Source of the DNA: Candidatus Tiamatella incendiivivens
GTDB taxonomy: Archaea > Thermoproteota > Thermoprotei_A > Sulfolobales > Acidilobaceae
NCBI GenBank assembly: GCA_015522635.1
Contig: WALW01000025.1
Coordinates: forward strand, 1-57,969
Direction of reading: 5' to 3'
Length of the DNA: 57,969 nucleotides
Positions 7 to 48,658 of the stretch are shown in pieces. The translations under genes were made by a program, and so were the position numbers. Numbering within the stretch: position 1 is the stretch's first letter; each line of letters starts with the position of its first letter. The notes beneath the pieces were generated by a model, which was given only the letters and a program-made list of their open reading frames with translations, searched no databases and was not told the origin of the DNA.

Positions 7-2658
7 ATGGGGAGTGACCTCGTCTTTATTCGGGGTGTGGAGATCTATAAGTCTATTCCTCTGGTTGGGAGTGAGGGTTATGTTGAGTGTTACCCGGCTA
101 ATAATCCCACGCAAGTTATAGCATATACTAAAGCTGGTGATGTTTTGATTGCTGATAGTCAGGGCAATGTTCTTTATAGAACCTTGGTGGGATTTGGAAC
201 ACTGAGTAAGGCATATTATTCTGGTGGAATTGTTTATATGCTAATCAATACACCGAGAGGCAAGGAGCTTTATGCGTACGATATTGATACTCGGTCTTGG
301 GGTTATATATCGACTATAGATCAGAATATAACTAATGCGAATAGATTGTTACTGGGAAGTGTTATAGATATGGTGCCTAATACTAATGGAATTACACTGC
401 TTTATGATCCTATTCTTCCACCAACAGTAAATGACTACACTACTATACCGTTGGTTATTGTGGATAGCAAAGGAAAACCAGTTAATAATGCTGAGATCCT
501 CATTTATTTTAAGGACTACGACTTCTCTTTCCAGACGCGTATATCCGGGTCAGGAGAGATATATGTACCTTTACCTATCAGCGAAATGGATATTTTTGTC
601 CAGTTTAATGAAACATGGTACTTGTATATATTCAATTCTACAAATATTAAGCAGACAGGTCTGGTAATAACAGTTCCAGGTAAAAACATGGTGCCACCGC
701 CCACAGGTCTAGCGAGGCATTACGCGGTGGTGATTCAAGGATTTACTGTCACTTATGTAAAACCTATTGGGCCGGCCTCCTATATAGTGAGTTCTACAGG
801 CTCGGAAATCGTTGTATACGACTCTACTCATTCAACCCTCATGTTTATAGATATGGTTACAGGGCGTTCAATGGGTATAGGTCTTGATTCCCCGCCCATT
901 AGTGCATCACTGTATAATGGGATCCTCGGTGTATTGACTTCCTCCGGGACATTATACATTTTCGATATTGGCTTTCAGAAACTTCTAACAACCATGTCGT
1001 TTCCCGGAGGAAGGTTTGTTGGTGTAAGTAAGGACTATGTTTTTGTGCAAACACCTACCTCTGTACACACGGTTTCAATTAAGAGCTTGAAAGACATCTT
1101 TATCTATGAAACAGCTGGTCTACCTGTCTCATCAGAGTATCTTTATGTTTCACCATATGACACGTTCATGTTCTCAACAAGTGACTCCACATTAATAGTT
1201 TCGGGACTACGCGCGGAAGAACCTTTCCCTATTAAAAGCTATATTCCGTACAAAGTCAATTTGACGGTCATAGATCCGTGGAGCCACAAAGTAGGCGACG
1301 CGAGGGTATTCGTAGATGGCGTCTATGCTGGTAGAACATCTAGTCATGGAACCATCGAGTTCTCATTGAACACAGGTTCCCATACTGTGTTGGTTGTTCC
1401 ACCTCCTGATTATTCAAATGTTACGCAAACACAGACAATATTAAATGTGACGGGAAACATGGTGGAAACCATTGTTCTCAATAGAACGATTTATCAGTTA
1501 TCTTTGCTAGTAAGGGATCCTCAATCGGTGCTCCTCAAGGATCCAGTTGTTCTCACGGTCAAATCCGGTAATGCTACTATTTTATCGGAAATCCTGAGGA
1601 AAAGCTCTATTGTGGTAGCTTGGGTTAAACCAGGTACTTATACTGTAAGCTTGGTTGATTCTGAGCTTGTGCCGTATTATAAGGACATTGCATTCGCAAT
1701 AAATGTAGGAAGCGATACAGCAACCAATCTAACACTTGAATACGTGTTGTATCCCTTGAAGTTAGAAGTTATTGACACGAGTACAGGCGAGCCTATCAAC
1801 TCGACGGTAATGGTTTGTACTAGTGGAGGATGCTCGACCAATACAACTGTATACTTATCTAAGGGTAAACATAGTTTGCAGGTAGAGCCGCTTGTTTATT
1901 ATAATGGTGTTAAACTCTATAAGAAGACTACTGTTATTGTTAACGTTCCGGAAGAGAAAGTGGTTAATGTTAAGGCAGAACGTCAATACTATATTGTTAA
2001 CCTGGTTTTATTGGATGATGTTACAAAACAATCGATTGGAAGCCCGGTTACAATTGAGGTTGGTGGGATTAAATATAAGCAGGTGAAGAATTTATCGCTT
2101 ATACTTCCTGCAGGTAGGAACATAGTATCGATTAGCGGTAACCAGCTCTATAATAGTATTAAGAAGGAAATCAATATTGATAGAGATGGGAATATCAATA
2201 TTACTGTTCCCAGGAAAACTAAAAGCATTCTAATAAAGGTTTCATCCGTTATCGGCAATGTTAGGAATGGAGTTCTACTCATAAGGTCAATATCCGGCAT
2301 ATACAAAGCTATGCCTGTTCCTCCTAGTGGAGAGGTTACTTTGACCCTTCCCGTTGACTGGTATACTGTTAAGTTTGAAAGTAACCTATACTCTACGGAG
2401 ACTATTTCATTTGACCTGGCAAACGAAAATAATGTTATCTTACTTACTAAACCAACATTGAAAGGATTGTTCGTATTGTATTCTAACTTGATTTTTGCTG
2501 GTGTCGGAGTTATCGCTGCTTTAGGGATTCTTTACTGGATGTCTAAGAAGACTGTCGAGCGGGTGAGGAGTATAAAGGAGATTTCAGAGCTCCTTGGCGA
2601 GGAGTATAAGGAAGAAGAGGGGGAGGAAAGTGAAGCTAGCACTGAGGAGGAAAAATAG
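7..2658 (+). CDS. Large membrane-anchored beta-rich surface protein (5' end may be incomplete)
   Basis: I do not recognise a named family. The N-terminal ~400 residues read like beta-propeller blades (repeated short strands such as GDVLIADSQGNVLYR and SGTLYIFDI). From about residue 410 there are several consecutive ~80-residue beta-sandwich units that start with patterns like YKVNLTVIDP, YQLSLLVRDP and YPLKLEVIDT and resemble PEGA or carboxypeptidase-regulatory-like folds. A single membrane helix (about 832-853) is followed by a positive patch and an acidic Glu-rich cytoplasmic tail, so most of the protein should be outside the cell. No stop codon precedes the first ATG inside the window, so the true start may lie upstream. 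The next gene, a TadC/FlaJ-like platform, overlaps its 3' end, which suggests a role in the same pilus or secretion machine. Function is inferred from context only. Confidence 0.6.
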   Translation: MGSDLVFIRGVEIYKSIPLVGSEGYVECYPANNPTQVIAYTKAGDVLIADSQGNVLYRTLVGFGTLSKAYYSGGIVYMLINTPRGKELYAYDIDTRSWGYISTIDQNITNANRLLLGSVIDMVPNTNGITLLYDPILPPTVNDYTTIPLVIVDSKGKPVNNAEILIYFKDYDFSFQTRISGSGEIYVPLPISEMDIFVQFNETWYLYIFNSTNIKQTGLVITVPGKNMVPPPTGLARHYAVVIQGFTVTYVKPIGPASYIVSSTGSEIVVYDSTHSTLMFIDMVTGRSMGIGLDSPPISASLYNGILGVLTSSGTLYIFDIGFQKLLTTMSFPGGRFVGVSKDYVFVQTPTSVHTVSIKSLKDIFIYETAGLPVSSEYLYVSPYDTFMFSTSDSTLIVSGLRAEEPFPIKSYIPYKVNLTVIDPWSHKVGDARVFVDGVYAGRTSSHGTIEFSLNTGSHTVLVVPPPDYSNVTQTQTILNVTGNMVETIVLNRTIYQLSLLVRDPQSVLLKDPVVLTVKSGNATILSEILRKSSIVVAWVKPGTYTVSLVDSELVPYYKDIAFAINVGSDTATNLTLEYVLYPLKLEVIDTSTGEPINSTVMVCTSGGCSTNTTVYLSKGKHSLQVEPLVYYNGVKLYKKTTVIVNVPEEKVVNVKAERQYYIVNLVLLDDVTKQSIGSPVTIEVGGIKYKQVKNLSLILPAGRNIVSISGNQLYNSIKKEINIDRDGNINITVPRKTKSILIKVSSVIGNVRNGVLLIRSISGIYKAMPVPPSGEVTLTLPVDWYTVKFESNLYSTETISFDLANENNVILLTKPTLKGLFVLYSNLIFAGVGVIAALGILYWMSKKTVERVRSIKEISELLGEEYKEEEGEESEASTEEEK

Positions 2659-4411
2659 GAAATCTAAAACCAGGAAAGGAAGGCGTATGGGTTTCTTATC
2701 TATCATAGACATTATTAGTGTAGCCGTTTTCGGCGGTATAGCACTTAAAATTGTTGAGAGTTTACAGCTTGATAGGAAGGCTATTGAGGGTAATATGAGG
2801 GTTCATCCGGTCTATTTGATAGCGAAGTATTTTTACTATACGTTTATTGCCGGTGTCTATGCAGTATTCGCTATTATTTATTTGTACCCGGTTATACCTT
2901 CGCCCTTCAATTTCATTACAGCTATATCTATTTTCTTAGTAATAGGAATGTTGCCTCTTGTGCCTGTTGTGAAAATATATAATGCTGTTGAGGAGAACAA
3001 GAGTAACATTTCCCGGGAACTACCGTATTTTATGTTTCATATGGCTGTACTGGCGAGGACCCGTTTATCCTTAGAGGACTTCTTGAATAGGATGAGCATC
3101 TCAACAGTATATCCTACTGTGGCCTCTTACATGAAGAGAATAACAGCTATATCAAAAACGCTTGGGTTCGATCTTCTGCATGCAATAGAGGAAGTAGGGT
3201 TGTCTATTCCCCATAAAGCTCTCAGCAGTACACTGACCGGGTTCGCTAATGTATTGAGAACTAGGGGAAATGTTACTGATTTTCTTGAGAGAGCTATGGA
3301 TCTAACTATGGAGGATCAGAGGAAGTATCTTGAACAATTGAAAGGTTCTGTTTCTATGATGGCAATGATGTATAGCGTTGTTATGATCTCAATTTTATTC
3401 CTTAATATTCTCCAAGTAACATCTGCTACAGGTAAACTAGCTCTTTCACTTCCCGTTTATGCGTTAACTTCTATTGTTTTAATACCCATGCTCTCATTTG
3501 CTATATTCTGGATGATATATCTTAAAGTGCCGAGAATGGAGGCTCCTAGTCGGTATCCACTATACATGTTTATAGCTTGGCTACCAATAGGCTTGATAGT
3601 AGGGTACGTGCTAGCTGATATGCTTAACGGATCTACTATTTTCTACAATGAGGTTGGGTTATCTATAGGCCTTGCCGTACCTTGTTTTGCAGCGTCTAGA
3701 GCTTATAGCAAACAAAATAAGGGTGAAGAGGCGTTAATGAGGAAGTTCACTGATTTCCTTCATAACATAGCTTCGGAGAGAAGGCTTGGTGTTCCTTTAG
3801 AGCAGATTCTTTTGAATATGGAACCTATCTATGGACCTCTAAATTCTGCCCTCAGGATTCTGAAGATGGGGATTCGTACTGGCATGCCTATGAGGCTGTC
3901 TATCGCCCTCGCGTTTTCTCAGTTACGGTCCAAGGTTGTTAGGTTTATGGCTGTTCTTTTAAGCGACGCCATAGTGTTGGGTTCTGCTACTGAAGAGACT
4001 TTTAATTTCATGGAGAGGATGGTAAGGGAGTTAATAGATGTTATTGATTCTATGAGAAGTGAGTTGAGGTCAATAAGTTTGACTCCTTATGTTATTATTA
4101 TAGTTGAAGTTGTGGGGATAGCTTTCTTCATAACGACTAACCCTGTTGCAGTGGTGAACACCGGGATACATGGTGGTGGAGCCGGGGGATTATTTGGATC
4201 CCAGTCAACTTATAATGCAGCAAACTTGGCGACTGTGTCTCACTACTTCGCGTATGGTACGATATTAACATCTTTCGTTGGGGCATTCATTATTGGACTT
4301 CTTAGGAGGCAGAATGTTTGGGCTGGGTTCTTTCATGCCGGTATTATACTGACAATTATAGCTATAACTCTTGCTTTAACAAATAAAATAGGGATCTATC
4401 ATCCAGTATGA
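2630..4411 (+). CDS. TadC/FlaJ-like type II secretion F-domain membrane platform protein
   Basis: About 593 residues with several hydrophobic membrane segments and two T2SSF-like cytoplasmic helical domains (one containing LSLEDFLNRM, the second LGVPLEQILLNM). This is the arrangement of archaeal FlaJ/TadC/PilC-type platforms, which sit in the membrane and couple the assembly ATPase to pilin polymerisation. I chose the GTG at 2630 because a strong GGGGGAGG ribosome binding site lies four to five bases upstream. That start overlaps the previous gene by 29 bases. An ATG at 2687 is the alternative and gives a protein beginning MGFLSIID. The partner ATPase is not in the window and probably lies upstream of base 1. 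Confidence 0.85.
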   Translation: MKLALRRKNRKSKTRKGRRMGFLSIIDIISVAVFGGIALKIVESLQLDRKAIEGNMRVHPVYLIAKYFYYTFIAGVYAVFAIIYLYPVIPSPFNFITAISIFLVIGMLPLVPVVKIYNAVEENKSNISRELPYFMFHMAVLARTRLSLEDFLNRMSISTVYPTVASYMKRITAISKTLGFDLLHAIEEVGLSIPHKALSSTLTGFANVLRTRGNVTDFLERAMDLTMEDQRKYLEQLKGSVSMMAMMYSVVMISILFLNILQVTSATGKLALSLPVYALTSIVLIPMLSFAIFWMIYLKVPRMEAPSRYPLYMFIAWLPIGLIVGYVLADMLNGSTIFYNEVGLSIGLAVPCFAASRAYSKQNKGEEALMRKFTDFLHNIASERRLGVPLEQILLNMEPIYGPLNSALRILKMGIRTGMPMRLSIALAFSQLRSKVVRFMAVLLSDAIVLGSATEETFNFMERMVRELIDVIDSMRSELRSISLTPYVIIIVEVVGIAFFITTNPVAVVNTGIHGGGAGGLFGSQSTYNAANLATVSHYFAYGTILTSFVGAFIIGLLRRQNVWAGFFHAGIILTIIAITLALTNKIGIYHPV

Positions 4412-4422
4412 GGGGATAAGGA

Positions 4423-5025
4423 GTGCTGAGACGTATGAAAGCGATGTCTACTATTATTGGCGAGGTTATCTTAGTGTCGTTCGCATTTGCAATTTCACTG
4501 GCATACCTAGGATATGTTAATTCGGCTTTCACGCAGCAGACTAGTAATGTGCCACCGAATATAGTAGCGGAGGCGCAGAAGAATATCCTTCAAGTGCTAG
4601 AGTTTGACCATACCAATCAAAGCTTGGAGTTCACTGTTAACATGGTTTTCAACGTTAAGATCAGGACACTCATAACCATAATAGGGTTTGATAGCAATGA
4701 TATCCCTGTTCCTATAACAATAGATGAAGCTAATAGTTTTAGCGGGTCAAGCGTGTTGTACCCTAATACTACTCTCTCAATATTGAAGCTGGATCCAGCT
4801 AAGGTGATCATATTGCAAAACGGTAAGTATTATAAGCTAAGTGACTTCGGGGTTTCCGGAGATGTTTACGCTGTAGAAATGCCGTATAATCCTCCTCTAA
4901 CACATATTAAGGCTACTATTAATAATCCATCTATTATGAAGGCGAGAATAATATCTCTGACACAGGTGGATACTAGGTTTTATGAATATGAATCCATTGA
5001 AACTAGCCTATCCACGTCAGGGTGA
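4423..5025 (+). CDS. Archaeal type IV pilin-like protein
   Basis: About 200 residues. The N-terminus has a short basic stretch (LRRMKAMST) followed by a hydrophobic helix (IIGEVILVSFAFAISLAYL), as in archaeal pilins processed by the PibD-type prepilin peptidase. The rest is beta-rich and should be extracellular. The gene starts 11 bases after the platform gene, and its stop overlaps the start of the next pilin-like gene (TGATG), so the three are clearly one operon. The start is GTG at 4423, or ATG at 4435. It is probably a minor or structural pilin of the machine encoded here; the exact pilin class is uncertain. Confidence 0.65.
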   Translation: MLRRMKAMSTIIGEVILVSFAFAISLAYLGYVNSAFTQQTSNVPPNIVAEAQKNILQVLEFDHTNQSLEFTVNMVFNVKIRTLITIIGFDSNDIPVPITIDEANSFSGSSVLYPNTTLSILKLDPAKVIILQNGKYYKLSDFGVSGDVYAVEMPYNPPLTHIKATINNPSIMKARIISLTQVDTRFYEYESIETSLSTSG

Positions 5026-6692
5026 TGGTGTTGAAGAAAAATAATCGTCTCAGGGTTAGAAGGAGTATTTCATCTTTAATAGTAGCGGTTATCCTATTAC
5101 CTGTCGTGTTCGGTGTATTAGCATATTCCGTGTATAATCTGAGAACACAATATGTTACTTATTCCAATTTACTCGCAAACCAAGAATACCGTGCGTTATC
5201 ACATGCAGAGTCAATTGATGGTGTCATTAAGACCTCTGCAAACCTTATAAACCTCAAAATGAAGAACTCTGGCCTGAGCACTTCTATCGTCAAGTATATT
5301 GTTGTGAAAGCTAACTTCACTACTGGCAGTAATATATTGTTCGTCATTAATTTAACGAGTACTACGTTTAGCGTTGCTGATCCTATAAAACAAATAAACG
5401 TGACTGGTACAATACAGCAAGGTAAAGGCCTAGTCCTACCTCCTGGAGCTGAATCTAGAATTGAAATACAATTAAACTACGATTTAGAAAGTGCGGAGGC
5501 TGGGGGCGTGACGCAATATGGTACATATATTCAGTTCAAACCCCCTGTTAGCACTGCAGCGTCTTCCCTTTCTACAACACTTATCATGTTCACAGTTCCC
5601 TCACTTACAGATCTACAAACTAGATCTGATGTACAAGTAGTCAACTCTTCAGAAGTCCTTGCACCGGGATCACCTGAGGATCCTGGTTATGGAATGACTG
5701 TTGCCTCGTCTGATTCCGGTTTATGGTGCTTATATAAAGAGTATAAGGATGCGGATGTTGTGGGAACTGTAAGTTATACTGTCGCAGCTGTAGGATTTAG
5801 TGGAGGCTGGTCGCTTACGAGAGAAGGCCCACCAATGTATTCTATATTGTTTTCAACAGATTATTTATATAACAGCAACTTAGTCATCAAAAACTCTACC
5901 AGTGTAACCGATCTCAGTTCACTTCTAGATAAATACGTTGCCGTTAGAGTCATATCATACGAGTACACCGGGTATATATCTATAAACGGCAGCGATAATA
6001 CGAACAACCCTGCAAATGTTGTTGGTATAAAACTATACGGTCAAGATCAGAATCCTGGGGATAAGCTTCAACTAAATGGTACTGCAAACAATGTATATGT
6101 ATATGTCAGAGAAAGTAGCTGTGGGTCATCTGGCAATGTTTCATACACTCCATATTTGGTTCTCGGTGATTTTGACAACAATGGGTATACAGAACTTTTA
6201 TTCATCACAGAAGATGGCTACTACAGCTATTATGGCTATGATGGTGATACTTGGAACAACTTGGATTTAAATGACTATAGTAAAATACCTCTAACACTCC
6301 TGTTCACAGGATACCCTATCGACAGTAATAAATATGTAGCTGTCGAGATTACTGTTAGATATTATTTCCATGATAATATAGGAGGAGATGAGCAAGCCAA
6401 TAATTATGATAGCTGGATACTAAATATCGGGTTATATGACCCGGAGAATAAAACACTCTCATCCTACTATACTCTAAGATATCAGTATTTGACTAAACTA
6501 GAAGACACATATCCTCCATCTTGGAACTACCAGATAGATACTATCCAACTTCTAGTACCGCAGACCGGTAAGACCTACTATGTAGCACTACAGTTCAGGG
6601 ATCCATTCCCAGCGCAACAATATGATGATATGGGGGATATCATGGTAGGAATAGAATATTTATCGATAGTCCTAATGCAACAACCATCATAA
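5025..6692 (+). CDS. Large pilin-like extracellular protein
   Basis: About 555 residues with a basic N-terminus (KKNNRLRVRRSISS) followed by one hydrophobic helix (LIVAVILLPVVFGVLAYSVY), which is a pilin-like or signal-anchor arrangement. The remainder is rich in Ser, Thr, Asn and Tyr and contains many NxS/T sequons, as expected for a glycosylated crenarchaeal surface protein. The C-terminal ~150 residues look like a beta-sandwich. The start is taken as ATG at 5025, overlapping the TGA of the previous gene by one base; a GTG three bases earlier is possible. It is the last gene of the appendage operon. It may be a tip adhesin or a very large pilin; no specific family is recognised. Confidence 0.6.
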   Translation: MVLKKNNRLRVRRSISSLIVAVILLPVVFGVLAYSVYNLRTQYVTYSNLLANQEYRALSHAESIDGVIKTSANLINLKMKNSGLSTSIVKYIVVKANFTTGSNILFVINLTSTTFSVADPIKQINVTGTIQQGKGLVLPPGAESRIEIQLNYDLESAEAGGVTQYGTYIQFKPPVSTAASSLSTTLIMFTVPSLTDLQTRSDVQVVNSSEVLAPGSPEDPGYGMTVASSDSGLWCLYKEYKDADVVGTVSYTVAAVGFSGGWSLTREGPPMYSILFSTDYLYNSNLVIKNSTSVTDLSSLLDKYVAVRVISYEYTGYISINGSDNTNNPANVVGIKLYGQDQNPGDKLQLNGTANNVYVYVRESSCGSSGNVSYTPYLVLGDFDNNGYTELLFITEDGYYSYYGYDGDTWNNLDLNDYSKIPLTLLFTGYPIDSNKYVAVEITVRYYFHDNIGGDEQANNYDSWILNIGLYDPENKTLSSYYTLRYQYLTKLEDTYPPSWNYQIDTIQLLVPQTGKTYYVALQFRDPFPAQQYDDMGDIMVGIEYLSIVLMQQPS

Positions 6693-42685: not shown

Positions 42686-44005
42686 TCAATGGACATTGTT
42701 GATTTTAAATATTGTTATTCTATCGGGTTTAAAATGCCCATTTCTAAGGACTATAGCTTGAAACTTTAATCGAGTGTTCAAACTAGATAACTCCTCTATA
42801 CCTAGTCCAGTTATCTCTGAAACCCCTCTAATGTATGTTAGATTTTGATTAGCAAAAACTATGAAGGTACCTGTATTGGAGTAAACCGTCGAACTCAGAT
42901 CCCAGGGGTTTTGCGTTGCGTATATTATTCTTAGCTTCTTGCTTCTAGATTCCCTGAAGAGATGATGGGCTTTATTAGATTTGAATATGCCAGGTAAGAC
43001 TCTCCATGCCTCATCTATTATCAGAACCTTTTCTATACTAGGTTTATCCTCGACGAGTTTCTTTACGGTGTTTTCATCGAATTCATTTAATATGTTGAGA
43101 TTTGTATAACTTGTTAAATGTTTATCTTTCAGTAGCATCAATAAATCTCCTTTCGGATCTATAATGTTAACATTTACTTTCTTTTTGAGAAAACTCGAGC
43201 TGATTATGTAGAGTAGCGTTGTTTTACCTGCTCCGGTGGGTCCGATGATTCCCACATGCCTTTCGAAATCATCAACCCATTTCAAACAGTATAGCAAACC
43301 TTCGATGCCTCTTCCAATACATATGTTATTAGAGGATTCAGGGGCTCCTGGAGTCACTAGGGCTTCGAAATCATCGTATATTGTGTTTTTCCTTATTGCG
43401 ATCTGGTTCTTTATTAGATCGACGATAAGGTTTGGATCGCGAAAAATTTCTTTTTCAACGATTTTCTTTGGATGTGATCCGAGTAATGATGATAACTCTA
43501 CTCCTAGGAACTCTATGTGTTTTTCCAGCTCGTTAGTATCATTAGAGCATAGAATGATTACTTTTGTATTGTGAAAACCTATATCATTTATTTTACTTAT
43601 AAGATGATCGTATTCATCGCTGGTTTTCGATTTAATAAATTCCTCATACCTTTTAATGTTGACTAGTTTCTTAGCGGTTCTCCGTTTATCTAGCGGAACA
43701 TACGTATCGATTATATATGAGTAAATTTTTTCATTTATTGTTGATAGGTGAGCTATTTTCCTCGATATTTGTGAAAATTTGTCCGCAGAAACTAATGTAG
43801 TATATGGAAGGTTCAGTTTGATTTTTATGCAGAACAAACTGTTAGTTGAAGAGAGAAAAGAGCTTTCCAGTCTTAATATCCCATCTGCATTGATCGAGTA
43901 TTTCTTGGGAGATACTCTGGATCCTATGACTGGTTTGCCCGATTTATAGATATTTCTAATTATCAATATAAGTGACAATGCAATGATGAGGGATACATAG
44001 TTCAC
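42686..44005 (-). CDS. cedB: VirB4/HerA-like ATPase, CedB candidate
   Basis: 439 residues. One N-terminal membrane helix (YVSLIIALSLILIIRNIY) precedes a cytoplasmic ATPase with Walker A GPTGAGKT (255-262) and Walker B VLIIDEA (327-333), then a sensor-like ATQNPWDLSS region, as in HerA/VirB4/TraC ATPases. In the crenarchaeal Ced system such an ATPase (CedB) powers DNA import. It starts with GTG, nine bases after the polytopic membrane gene. It may be shorter than the Sulfolobus CedB. Gene neighbours support the call; homology itself cannot be tested here. Confidence 0.7.
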   Translation of the reverse strand: MNYVSLIIALSLILIIRNIYKSGKPVIGSRVSPKKYSINADGILRLESSFLSSTNSLFCIKIKLNLPYTTLVSADKFSQISRKIAHLSTINEKIYSYIIDTYVPLDKRRTAKKLVNIKRYEEFIKSKTSDEYDHLISKINDIGFHNTKVIILCSNDTNELEKHIEFLGVELSSLLGSHPKKIVEKEIFRDPNLIVDLIKNQIAIRKNTIYDDFEALVTPGAPESSNNICIGRGIEGLLYCLKWVDDFERHVGIIGPTGAGKTTLLYIISSSFLKKKVNVNIIDPKGDLLMLLKDKHLTSYTNLNILNEFDENTVKKLVEDKPSIEKVLIIDEAWRVLPGIFKSNKAHHLFRESRSKKLRIIYATQNPWDLSSTVYSNTGTFIVFANQNLTYIRGVSEITGLGIEELSSLNTRLKFQAIVLRNGHFKPDRITIFKINNVH

Positions 44006-44014
44006 TTATCGAAT

Positions 44015-45460
44015 TCACCCCCGTATGGGTATGTATGGGAATACCCTGCTTCCTAGAAGCTTAGCCAGCTGTCTCGCTATCAGTACAAGTATGGCTATAT
44101 ACAGGATTGGCATGAGCATTAGTTGGAAGAACACGTTTGATATAATGAAATATATTGAGTCTGTAGTTACTCCCAGGAAGTCCTTGACATAATAGTATCT
44201 TAATTTATCGTAGTTTGGAGTTCCTGTTTTCTTTCCCTCTAGGCGAATAATTAAGTTGCTAGTGTTTGCTTGGTTGACGGATGTTATCCTATATGAGGTG
44301 CCGGATAATCCTAACCACTCCCATTTACCATTACTGGAAAAGTTGCAGTTTTCGCAAGATATAACATCAATTCTTATGCCATCTGGTATTCTAAGGCCAA
44401 TATAAGCTTGACTGGGCCCGCTATATTTTATTGAGATCATGCAACCGGTAGAGGATTTTTCATCTATGGATATTGATGAGATTTTTACTTCGAGTAAGCT
44501 TCTATATATAATTGCATAGTTAGAGTCCATCCACAGGATGAAGGGAGATACTATATCAAGAGTTACCCTGGATTCCTTAATGGAATAATCTGTGGAGGGA
44601 TCTACTGGATATGGAGTTGCAGGGAACGAAATTCCGTCAATAATAAAGTAGGTATAAAACTCCTTGTTCGAAGGAAGGCCTTTCTCAGCTAAACTAGCGT
44701 CAATATATCCTCCGTCTGAAAGATATCTAGCAATCAAAACCCGTCCTCCGTTTTCCATAACCTTAAACTCCACAGGAAATGACGTATTAATGGGTGGTTC
44801 AGCGTTATAGAAGCTTGTTCTAACTATCGGGTAGCTTATCCCCCAATTCAGAAGATCATTCGGGTGAGTTGAGATTGGAGACATTGGCGGTGTAAATGCT
44901 TGTGTGAAAGCTGGTAGTAATGGTAAACCAATGTAGAATATTATGGAGAGCGAGATAAGCCATGCTCCTGCAGATCTACCGAGTCGGAAAGGCATTGCAA
45001 TAAGCATTATTCCCATAGCGATAAGAGCAAACCAATAAGATTGGAAGAAATAACCCGATATTTTCATGAAACTTATTGTTATCATATTATAGGATACTAG
45101 CCTTATTACGGGGCCTAATATATCTCCGTATAGGATTAAGGATTTCAAAGCCTTAAATGCTGTGTAATAAGCTATTAGGAGAAGCCGTTGCTGGCCTAGG
45201 AAATCCAGTGTAGTGTCCGTCCATGCATAGAAGCCTTCCCAGCTGGATCCCAGTATTTTGGCTAGTTCAATTATTCCTGTTTTAATGAAGTCTATGGATA
45301 CCAATAAAGTGAAAGTTAGGATAGAGTCTTTAATTAGGTTTGGCCCCCATCTCTTCAAGGAATAAATAGGAAAAGGTAGTGCATAGATTAGCACTCCTAG
45401 ATAATAAGTTAAAAAGGACAGATAAAAGGCTACTTCAACGAAGTCATCGACGTTTAACAT
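44015..45460 (-). CDS. cedA: Polytopic membrane protein, CedA (VirB6-like) candidate
   Basis: 481 residues. About six helices in the first ~190 residues (including MPFRLGRSAGAWLISLSIIF), then a ~230-residue beta-rich outside domain with NxS/T sites, and one or two helices at the C-terminus. This fits a CedA/VirB6-type channel with a large exterior loop. The N-terminal hairpin loop FPIYSLKRWGPNLIKDSI closely resembles the loop of the small pilin candidate encoded upstream. The ATG has GGTGAT eight bases upstream. DNA translocation is inferred from gene order with the VirB4-like ATPase and two-helix small protein. Confidence 0.7.
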   Translation of the reverse strand: MLNVDDFVEVAFYLSFLTYYLGVLIYALPFPIYSLKRWGPNLIKDSILTFTLLVSIDFIKTGIIELAKILGSSWEGFYAWTDTTLDFLGQQRLLLIAYYTAFKALKSLILYGDILGPVIRLVSYNMITISFMKISGYFFQSYWFALIAMGIMLIAMPFRLGRSAGAWLISLSIIFYIGLPLLPAFTQAFTPPMSPISTHPNDLLNWGISYPIVRTSFYNAEPPINTSFPVEFKVMENGGRVLIARYLSDGGYIDASLAEKGLPSNKEFYTYFIIDGISFPATPYPVDPSTDYSIKESRVTLDIVSPFILWMDSNYAIIYRSLLEVKISSISIDEKSSTGCMISIKYSGPSQAYIGLRIPDGIRIDVISCENCNFSSNGKWEWLGLSGTSYRITSVNQANTSNLIIRLEGKKTGTPNYDKLRYYYVKDFLGVTTDSIYFIISNVFFQLMLMPILYIAILVLIARQLAKLLGSRVFPYIPIRG

Positions 45461-45470
45461 TACTTAACTA

Positions 45471-45710
45471 TCACCCTGTTACTGATCGAACGACATAACT
45501 GACTAATGCAAAAACTGTTGTCCCCATAGCCAACCAGAAAGATGCCCATATAGAATCTTCTACGAGGCTATCGCCTGCTCTTTTTAGTTTAGTGAATGGT
45601 ATTGGTGAGCCTTTCAGAGTCCAGCCGATACTCCACGTTAATATGAAGAGTGACCATGCTATAGTAGTAACCTTCGTTGTCAGGTCTTGTATAAATTGTA
45701 CTGCATCCAC
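45471..45710 (-). CDS. cedA1: Two-helix small membrane protein, CedA1-type pilin candidate
   Basis: 79 residues. Two hydrophobic helices (about 17-32 and 54-74) flank a positively charged loop (PIPFTKLKRAGDSL). This is the VirB2/CedA1-like pilin topology: a short protein inserted in the membrane and then polymerised into a conjugation-type pilus. GTG start with GGTGAG six bases upstream. It lies ten bases before the CedA-like gene and 31 bases after the large extracellular protein. I cannot exclude that it is instead the CedA2-like accessory protein. Confidence 0.68.
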   Translation of the reverse strand: MDAVQFIQDLTTKVTTIAWSLFILTWSIGWTLKGSPIPFTKLKRAGDSLVEDSIWASFWLAMGTTVFALVSYVVRSVTG

Positions 45711-45741
45711 ATTTTCTCACCGTTCAATGACGCTGAAGATA

Positions 45742-47679
45742 TTAGGGAGTCGTTTGCGATAGTGTTGTAAAAGGCATTGCAACAGTACCGTTTGCAGGTA
45801 TTTTTGCAACGATATAATTGTCTCCGATAATAACTCCATTAACTCCTTGCGGTACTATTTCACTAGGCTTTACTAGGTATACCATCGAATAAGGGTAGCC
45901 TCTTATAACGATGTATCCCCTGTAATTCGAGTTGAAACATAGCTTTGCTTCCTCGATACTACCGTTGATGGCTTTATACTGAACTAATCTTAGAGACTTA
46001 GTGTCTGAGAGGTTAAGGTATCGGACTGGTAGGATTACAATATTGTCTCCACCGGATAGAGCTTGGGGGTAATTGAGGAGGAGATTACCTATAATTGGCA
46101 TGTAATTGTATACAGCTAACGCCTCATTTTCCGTTGAGTGAGTATAAAGCTTCTGAAGGAAAATAGTGGAAATTGAACAAGTGCATATAGAATTGTTATT
46201 GGAGAAAGCTTTGGTGAATAACAGTTTTGAAACGGTATCCTTAACTATCTCTAAAACAGGAGAATCATTTGACACATACGGGATTACAAAGTAATTAAGA
46301 TACCGGGAGTATCCATTATATGCTAGACCAATGACTCCTAAAAATGGGCCGTGGGTTACTGTGAAATGATAATTATTCTTGTATGAGTAGAACAATATTA
46401 ATGGTTTGTTTAACTCATTGCTGTATACTAAACTTCCATTTCCTTTTAACCTGAAACCTCTTGTAATAAGCGATATGTAACTAGGATATATGTGCATAGA
46501 ATAATACTGGAAGACGTTTCGAACATTAGCGTAAATGGGGGTTGTTCCGTTTAACTGCAATGCAAACTCGGTATCTAATGGCGGAGGCACTATTACAATG
46601 GAGGGATATAGTTTTATGGTTGTATTAATTTCGATTGATCCTATTTTAACACCTGTTCCAAGTGATAGGACTGTATTCGAGGAATACGGGATAATCCTAT
46701 TATAGTTAGCATTTCTAGCCTTCAGAAGAAATAGTAGCTGATGTATACCTATACGTTTTATAGTTACATTAAAGGTTGAACCCATTGAGAAGTAATTTCC
46801 ACTAGATATGGTATCGTATAATTCCCCATTAACATATAAGTAAAGCCTAGATATTAGTGAAGAGTAATGGATGTGATAGGTGACTGTCGCGTTTTCATCG
46901 TCTAAAACCACCGAACCTAGTATAGGAATTAAGTCGATTTCCTTTACATCTTCTAAGTACTTGCTCGAATTAAAATCGTATACGTAGTTCTTTTTATAAC
47001 TAGTTTCAAAGCCAGCTTTAGTTACATTTATAATTAAAGTTTCATTATTGAATCCGTGGAAATTGCTTGTTATAAAAGTAGAATTCCTTTTTATGTATGC
47101 TACATCGAATCTTAAGCTATTTATTTTACTTAAATCAACTTGAAGGTAATTATCCAGAGAATAATCAGCATATTTTCTTAGCACGATACTATTGATAGCT
47201 GGATATACGACATATTGAAATACCTTTGATAAATAACCATCTCCTATACCTACTTGCAGATCCCTCTTTAAAGGGATACAAGATTGGTATAGCTCGTTAC
47301 TTAATATGGGAATAGGCTTTTTCGGGACTATGATGACGTGCGAATCATCAGTTATCAATGCAGTGACATCGCTTTCATTTAATAGAATGTTACTTTTCGG
47401 GTTTATCTGAAAATCTGTTTTCTTATAGGAGGAGTTGGAGTAAATTATATATCTAATTCTAATTATTCTGTCTTCATTATTGTAGACTAATACGGTTCCA
47501 TTAGACAGTCTGATCGTCTCTAGGTTCGTGGGAATATTACTGCGAACCTCTTCTTCTATCACACCTGTGGAGTAGTTAGTATATTTTTGTAATACAACTA
47601 TAGAGTTGACTAATATAATTATTAGTAAAAGAGCACTTATTAGATTGGATAATCCCTTTTTATGGAGTGACTTACTCAT
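45742..47679 (-). CDS. Large extracellular protein with pilin-type N-terminus, first gene of the Ced-like operon
   Basis: About 645 residues. The N-terminus SKSLHKKGLSNLISALLLII has a basic stretch, a Gly at the expected cleavage point and a long hydrophobic helix, as in proteins cut by archaeal prepilin peptidase (PibD). The remainder is beta-rich, has many NxS/T sites and no C-terminal anchor, so it should be outside the cell. I choose the ATG at 47679 because GGGG sits just ahead of it; an ATG at 47691 is also open. No family recognised. It may be a surface adhesin or cap of the DNA-transfer apparatus; this is an inference from the operon. Confidence 0.55.
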   Translation of the reverse strand: MSKSLHKKGLSNLISALLLIIILVNSIVVLQKYTNYSTGVIEEEVRSNIPTNLETIRLSNGTVLVYNNEDRIIRIRYIIYSNSSYKKTDFQINPKSNILLNESDVTALITDDSHVIIVPKKPIPILSNELYQSCIPLKRDLQVGIGDGYLSKVFQYVVYPAINSIVLRKYADYSLDNYLQVDLSKINSLRFDVAYIKRNSTFITSNFHGFNNETLIINVTKAGFETSYKKNYVYDFNSSKYLEDVKEIDLIPILGSVVLDDENATVTYHIHYSSLISRLYLYVNGELYDTISSGNYFSMGSTFNVTIKRIGIHQLLFLLKARNANYNRIIPYSSNTVLSLGTGVKIGSIEINTTIKLYPSIVIVPPPLDTEFALQLNGTTPIYANVRNVFQYYSMHIYPSYISLITRGFRLKGNGSLVYSNELNKPLILFYSYKNNYHFTVTHGPFLGVIGLAYNGYSRYLNYFVIPYVSNDSPVLEIVKDTVSKLLFTKAFSNNNSICTCSISTIFLQKLYTHSTENEALAVYNYMPIIGNLLLNYPQALSGGDNIVILPVRYLNLSDTKSLRLVQYKAINGSIEEAKLCFNSNYRGYIVIRGYPYSMVYLVKPSEIVPQGVNGVIIGDNYIVAKIPANGTVAMPFTTLSQTTP

Positions 47680-47684
47680 TTGAT

Positions 47685-47705
47685 GCCCCATATGTATTAA
47701 GGGGC
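47685..47705. repeat. Inverted repeat over the start region of the Ced-like operon
   Basis: GCCCC (47685-47689) pairs with GGGGC (47701-47705) around an AT-rich 11-base centre containing TATGTATTAA. On the minus strand it lies just before the chosen ATG and could hide the GGGG ribosome-binding sequence or act as an operator. Confidence 0.4.
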
Positions 47706-47752: not shown

Positions 47753-48658
47753 TTAGGAGATCTCCTTGGAAAGTTTGTAAATGGTGTTATCCTCTTTTTC
47801 ATATTCATAATAACCTATGAGTTCATAGAATTCTTGCCTAGTCATCATTCTATCCAGTATGTTTCTCTGGGTTCCTTCCGATTTTATTACTCTCAGAGCA
47901 TCTCTCATAGCTCCTAAGGATATTCTGAGTAGAGTTACCGGGAATAAGACTAGTTTGTATCCCCATTTGCTGAAGTCTTCAACAGTGAAATATGGAGTTT
48001 TCCCGAACTCTGTCATGTTCGCTAAGAGTGGTATATTGATTTTCTTTGAAAACTCTCTGAATTCTTCTTCATTTGTTAGTGCTTCAGGGAAAATTATGTC
48101 AGCTCCTGCCTGCTCGTAAAGCTTGGCTCTTCTTAAGGCTTCGTCTAGGCCTTCAACACCTCTAGCATCAGTCCTCGCAATGATAAGCATTTTATCTTTG
48201 GCAATCCTTTTTGCAGCAATTATTTTCCTGGTCATTTCTTCGGCTGGAGCTAGTTTCTTGCCCTTTAAATGACCGCATTTCTTCGGAAGGACTTGGTCTT
48301 CTATTTGAATGGCTGCTGCTCCAGCGCCGATTAAATCTCTCACCGTTCTTTGAACGTTAATGGTTTCACCAAAGCCTGTGTCCGTATCAACGATCAAAGG
48401 TAGATTAGTTATCCTTGTTATGTACCGGGTTGACTTGACTAATTCGGTGAGTGTTATAAGCCCTAAATCGGGCATCGCTAGACTACCTGTTAAGGCTGCA
48501 CCACTCAGGTATATTGCATCAAAACCCATCGATTCCACTAGCAAAGCACTGGCAGGGTTGAATACACCTATTACAGGGGTTGTTTTCTTTCTCTGCATTA
48601 GTTCCTTGAGCATTCCAGCTGGATTCTCTTGGGGTTTATCCCGGAAAAGGAAAGCCAT
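47753..48658 (-). CDS. prpB: Methylisocitrate lyase/PEP mutase family protein (PrpB-like)
   Basis: 301 residues. Isocitrate-lyase-superfamily features: LIVDTDTGFGE, IQIEDQVLPKKCGHLKGK (the KKCGH catalytic loop), and IIARTDARGVEGLDEA. PrpB cleaves 2-methylisocitrate to pyruvate and succinate in the methylcitrate cycle of propionate use. It suits the propionyl-CoA theme of the window, but no methylcitrate synthase or dehydratase is nearby. Other members (oxaloacetate hydrolase, PEP mutase) are less likely given the Cys loop. An in-frame Met at residue 16 could be the start. Confidence 0.85.
   Translation of the reverse strand: MAFLFRDKPQENPAGMLKELMQRKKTTPVIGVFNPASALLVESMGFDAIYLSGAALTGSLAMPDLGLITLTELVKSTRYITRITNLPLIVDTDTGFGETINVQRTVRDLIGAGAAAIQIEDQVLPKKCGHLKGKKLAPAEEMTRKIIAAKRIAKDKMLIIARTDARGVEGLDEALRRAKLYEQAGADIIFPEALTNEEEFREFSKKINIPLLANMTEFGKTPYFTVEDFSKWGYKLVLFPVTLLRISLGAMRDALRVIKSEGTQRNILDRMMTRQEFYELIGYYEYEKEDNTIYKLSKEIS

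Follow-up and report, generated by a model that had tools for sequence, protein, structure and literature searches.

The locus described here raises the question of why a set of genes for DNA exchange should begin with a gene for a large pilin-like surface protein, and to which of two machineries that protein belongs. Sulfolobales encode the Ups machinery for cell contact separately from the Ced machinery for DNA transfer. The tube formed by CedA1 consists of two-helix pilins of the VirB2-like type. The Ced system CedA1-CedA-CedB was reportedly described by van Wolferen in 2016. The window, i.e., the whole stretch of 57,969 nucleotides that was analysed, represents one entire 58-kb contig of the 1.45-Mb genome of the heat-loving archaeon Candidatus Tiamatella incendiivivens. 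From its letters, the original prediction had recognized four minus-strand genes with a spacing of 31, 10 and 9 bases, the last three being the CedA1-CedA-CedB set and the first, with a pilin-like N-terminus, possibly a new structural component of a conjugation-like pilus.

Examination of the open reading frames reproduced this description exactly, with four tandem genes on the minus strand between 42686 and 47679 and gaps of 31, 10 and 9 bases; the first gene will be referred to as orfP (Table 1). The long reading frame containing orfP extends from 45742 to 47691 (649 aa) and has an alternative start at 47679 yielding 645 aa, which was chosen because the alignment of the genus members begins at this position. 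Since prpB (47753-48658) is located on the same strand only 73 bases upstream of orfP, the transcript start could be further up. The order cedA1-cedA-cedB recurs across the class and orfP is intact in the genus, which argues against a chance arrangement. Judged from the sequence, orfP, cedA1, cedA and cedB form one operon-like layout, a chromosomal Ced DNA-exchange locus, and they are presumably co-transcribed.

Table 1. Features of the Ced locus and of the pilus operon in the window.
Feature	Coordinates	Strand	Basis or remark
orfP, large type IV pilin-like surface protein, 645 aa	45742..47679	-	first Ced-operon gene
Class III (type IV prepilin) signal peptide and first part of hydrophobic helix	47605..47679	-	sequence, relatives' alignment
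UpsC-like N-terminal pilin domain of orfP, residues 1-120, predicted long helix and 7 strands	47320..47679	-	hhalign, model
C-terminal ectodomain of orfP, ~525 residues, mostly strands in low-confidence model	45742..47319	-	
cedA1, VirB2-like pilin, 79 aa, GTG start	45471..45710	-	NF041797, PDB 8dfu
cedA, VirB6-like channel, 481 aa, long outside loop	44015..45460	-	NF041796, syntenic relatives
cedB, VirB4/HerA-superfamily ATPase, 439 aa, GTG start, N-terminal hydrophobic segment	42686..44005	-	tree, NF041017
Type IV pilus assembly platform (UpsF/ArlJ-like)	2594..4411	+	putative assembly partner of orfP
Pilin-like protein, 200 aa, weak UpsA match (E 6e-4)	4423..5025	+	same pilus operon
Second large protein, 556 aa, class III-like N-terminus (RRSISSLIVAVILL)	5022..6692	+	same pilus operon

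Profiles, a structure match and a tree agreed with the predicted identity of all three downstream genes. CedA1 scored 128.2 bits against the NCBIfam model NF041797 (cut-off 100) and, by sequence, matched the CedA1 pilus of Aeropyrum pernix (PDB 8dfu) with an E-value of 2.1e-30. CedA matched NF041796 over residues 1-191 (E 1.9e-38); this 259-position model has a curated cut-off of 330, which the score of 132.6 bits did not reach. As most syntenic relatives of CedA comprise 450-490 aa, compared to about 260 aa for the Sulfolobaceae forms, the long outside loop is normal in the order. The best NCBIfam match of CedB, NF041017, was weak (E 8.6e-11, 41 bits versus a cut-off of 700), a threshold that seven syntenic relatives examined alongside also failed to reach. 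A tree built from 58 ATPases placed CedB with the syntenic copies and with Sulfolobaceae CedB, and HerA, CedD and other relatives were separated from this clade with an SH-aLRT of 100. The grouping with HerA that the original prediction had named as evidence against itself was looked for in this tree and did not occur; on the same support, the 439-aa ATPase is ruled out as HerA or CedD. CedA1 matches were obtained in 177 of 229 genomes of the class and cedA1-cedA-cedB synteny is common throughout it, so the three-gene part was already known; DNA import between cells is the predicted function of the set here. Two further ATPases of the VirB4/HerA superfamily were observed elsewhere in the genome, one CedD-like with 549 aa (L002, G000:C27; CedD E 2.7e-71) and one with 594 aa and several predicted helices (L004, G000:C19).

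The orfP product starts with MSKSLHKKG/LSNLISALLLIIILV, the slash marking the predicted PibD cut after Gly9, and its class III signal KKG/LSNLIS aligns with 24 relatives. Modelling of the N-terminal domain (pLDDT 84.6) yielded a long helix with seven strands. The best PDB match of this model was 8fk7, a Pyrobaculum archaeal type IV pilus subunit (prob 1.00), and the eighth was 8q30 (Sulfolobus Aap), the E-values of the fold matches being weak (best 5.6e-3). The model tests fold and not kinship, because its input alignment contained UpsC sequences. The pilin-like N-terminus originally proposed was confirmed, with a class III signal and a predicted pilin fold. AlphaFold modelling of the complete protein gave a poor result (pLDDT 40), and the fold matches of this model were set aside except as a hint. 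No relatives of the C-terminal ~520 residues were detected outside the genus by profile search of 229 genomes, orfP had no family in Pfam, NCBIfam or PHROGs, and a PDB sequence search gave nothing useful. The protein carries 18 N-glycosylation sequons, compared to 9 ± 2.7 obtained by shuffling.

Profile comparisons point to UpsC as the closest kin of the N-terminal domain. Residues 2-120 of orfP matched the UpsC family with a hhalign probability of 95.5% (E 1.5e-8), and a depth-matched test yielded 97.3% over 113 columns for UpsC, compared to 79% for UpsB and, covering the helix only, 65% for other pilins and 42% for UpsA; the reversed UpsC control gave 0.2%. Beyond the genus, the orfP profile obtained only N-terminal matches in the 229 genomes. 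Where both the orfP profile and the UpsC model match a Sulfolobaceae genome, they pick the same gene in seven out of eight cases (G197, G198, G199, G200, G214, G215 and G217, with G191 differing); G192 and G193 were matched by the orfP profile and had no UpsC-model match. The NCBIfam UpsC model NF053659 did not match orfP (0 families at E ≤ 1) and had no match in the window's own genome at E 0.01. In these comparisons the likeness to UpsC is that of the N-terminal domain and not of the whole protein, with no full-length UpsC homology. Altogether, the Ced identity of the three genes, the class III signal and the N-terminal kinship to UpsC are borne out at the sequence level. UpsC, a type IV pilin that works together with Ups, is required in Sulfolobales for both aggregation and DNA exchange; its deletion in Sa. 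islandicus abolished import, cut export to about 10% and lowered aggregation (PMC11868833).

Intact orfP genes (643-646 aa) were found in three further members of the genus with identities of 63%, 38% and 38%, and a profile of the genus members detected full-length relatives among 229 genomes only within this genus. The genus is represented here by assemblies of metagenome type only. The gene order was prpB, orfP, cedA1 in all full-length cases, with a gap of about 31 bases between orfP and cedA1 in every one. Constant neighbourhood to cedA1, raised in the original prediction as a point to follow across genomes, thus holds for the full-length homologues, but these are confined to one genus. 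Among 14 neighbouring genes compared within the genus, orfP was the least conserved in both comparisons (63% and 38%), and cedA1, with 95% and 89%, was the best conserved in one and second or near-best in the other. The low conservation and the sequon richness would both suit a surface protein recognizing the partner. Other genera in the family have prpB or a different gene next to cedA1, and no orfP there. Within genus g5, one genome (G039) shows prpB followed by an orfP-like start running off the contig, and another (G038) lacks orfP, no remnants being seen by eye in the 392-base gap. Most relatives carry a housekeeping gene upstream of cedA1, and orfP therefore does not belong to the Ced set in general. 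A contig labelled as the bacterium Nitratiruptor (L098, JALWCE010000049.1) carries a Tiamatella-type orfP-cedA1-cedA arrangement and is probably a mis-binned archaeal contig.

For the upstream survey, 157 cedA1 loci were used that had 700 bases or more of sequence before the gene; some of these loci were extracted more than once from the same genome. Among them, only the genus of the window and the families f3 (three genera), f11 (two) and f14 (one) showed, directly before cedA1, a large protein with an N-terminal helix. The large proteins of f3 and f11, two other families of the order, are preceded by a small pilin-like protein of 107-140 aa; the large ones have 604-726 aa in the pairs L050, L122, L128, L081 and L138, and the small proteins of f11 resemble UpsB (89% in profile comparison). 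No profile similarity to orfP was detected for the large proteins of f3 and f11, the architecture alone being alike, and the idea that orfP combines the small and the large protein in one fused chain drew no support from profile comparison of the large parts (0.1%) and little from that of the small parts (12-53%). Large proteins at the head of Ced operons in other families appear to be unrelated to orfP or very distant from it. Just upstream of cedA1 in G005 (L092), and 290 bases upstream of it in G182 (L068), proteins of roughly 1,500 aa were observed that have a signal peptide and a C-terminal helix.

With respect to the machinery required, the assembly platform in the window was the only PF00482 protein found in the genome, and its match to UpsF is hardly better than that to ArlJ. 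The platform gene belongs to an operon for type IV pili that lies at the edge of the contig (window positions 7-6692, plus strand) and also includes an 883-aa PEGA-containing membrane protein; the 556-aa protein of this operon had no profile similarity to orfP. Genes for a PibD-family peptidase, the platform and a pilus-type ATPase are all present in the genome, the ATPase of the right kind being located on another contig and not in the 2594-6692 operon. One type IV pilus-type ATPase (L193, G000:C10, around 553-2547) is apparently interrupted by an intein, with a frame of about 948 aa and a splicing and endonuclease-like insert; its contig appears to differ from the window in sequence composition and could represent contamination.

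That the first gene is of pilin type held, but for its role a cell-contact arm is more likely than the new structural component of the conjugation-like pilus originally suggested. A type IV pilus arm is favoured because signal and fold are of type IV and UpsC is the closest match of the N-terminal domain, the CedA1 tube by contrast being VirB2-like. A protein built directly into the CedA1 conjugation-type pilus, such as a VirB5-like tip or base protein, would fit the position about 31 bases ahead of cedA1 in every full-length case as well as the large extracellular domain, and large proteins with an N-terminal transmembrane segment precede cedA1 in other families too. We nevertheless regard this as improbable, since the class III signal and the type IV pilin fold indicate a different assembly route and the nearest relative, UpsC, works together with Ups pili and in aggregation rather than with the CedA1 tube (PMC11868833). 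It appears equally unlikely that orfP encodes a general surface glycoprotein or a substrate-binding or adhesion pilin without a role in DNA exchange, adjoining cedA1 by chance: stand-alone class III-signal pilin genes occur in archaeal genomes (PMC4858521), full-length relatives exist in one genus only, and orfP is absent before cedA1 in most relatives, but members sharing only 38% identity in orfP still have the order prpB-orfP-cedA1, the N-terminal domain prefers UpsC over other pilins, and similar operon heads exist in other families. CedA2, a small two-helix membrane protein, is ruled out by the 645 aa and the single N-terminal helix of orfP.

We therefore favour, with moderate confidence, a Ced operon headed by a large type IV pilin-like gene with a UpsC-like N-terminal domain, which would supply an adhesin for mating contact. 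orfP is probably a fast-evolving adhesive pilin built by the type IV pilus machinery and not a subunit of the CedA1 tube; we infer its assembly, its adhesive role and its coupling to import. orfP would be made on one transcript with cedA1-cedA-cedB. Cleavage by PibD, here after Gly9, and assembly by a type IV platform are expected from the type of the N-terminal domain, and the platform might incorporate the protein as a minor or tip pilin. The exposed ectodomain of ~520 residues, sequon-rich and fast-evolving, would bind the surface of the partner cell. Once this contact is secured, single-stranded DNA would be imported by the CedA1 tube, the CedA channel and CedB, the CedD-like ATPase encoded elsewhere possibly working with CedB.

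According to the 2025 Ced/Ups paper (PMC11868833), species lacking Ups must rely on a different appendage unless they can do without aggregation. The UpsC-like pilin at the head of the Ced operon represents a concrete candidate for such an alternative appendage and a genetic handle on it, and the parts for cell contact and DNA transfer may here come from one operon. We tentatively put forward that, outside Sulfolobaceae, several crenarchaeal lineages have independently wired Ups-type pilins into the Ced operon, one transcript then providing both adhesin and conduit. No description of the orfP-Ced arrangement was found in the open papers searched, a set to which the 2016 PNAS original on Ced did not belong. 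The new element appears to be the head gene with a UpsC-like domain beside cedA1, the DNA-exchange operon itself being known.

Compared to known systems, the operon at 2594-6692 shares a UpsF-like platform and a weak UpsA-like pilin with the Ups type IV pili (UpsX-E-F-A-B) but differs in that the ATPase is not part of this operon on the contig. The pairs in f3 and f11 resemble orfP in their position ahead of cedA1 and in a large protein with an N-terminal helix, whereas their small pilin is separate and their large proteins are without profile similarity to it. UpsC (NF053659; SiRe_1957, PMC11868833) is likewise large, with a class III signal and a homologous N-terminal pilin domain of ~120 residues, but its C-terminal ectodomain differs, its NCBIfam model does not match orfP, and it lies upstream of cedA1 at none of the Sulfolobaceae loci examined, whereas orfP adjoins cedA1. 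With the Ced system, including the CedA1 pilus (Beltran 2023, PMC9905601), the locus shares three genes in the usual order for a VirB2-like pilin, a VirB6-like channel and a VirB4-like ATPase; it differs in its short CedB (439 aa), far below the cut-off, and in the extra type IV pilin-like gene at its head.
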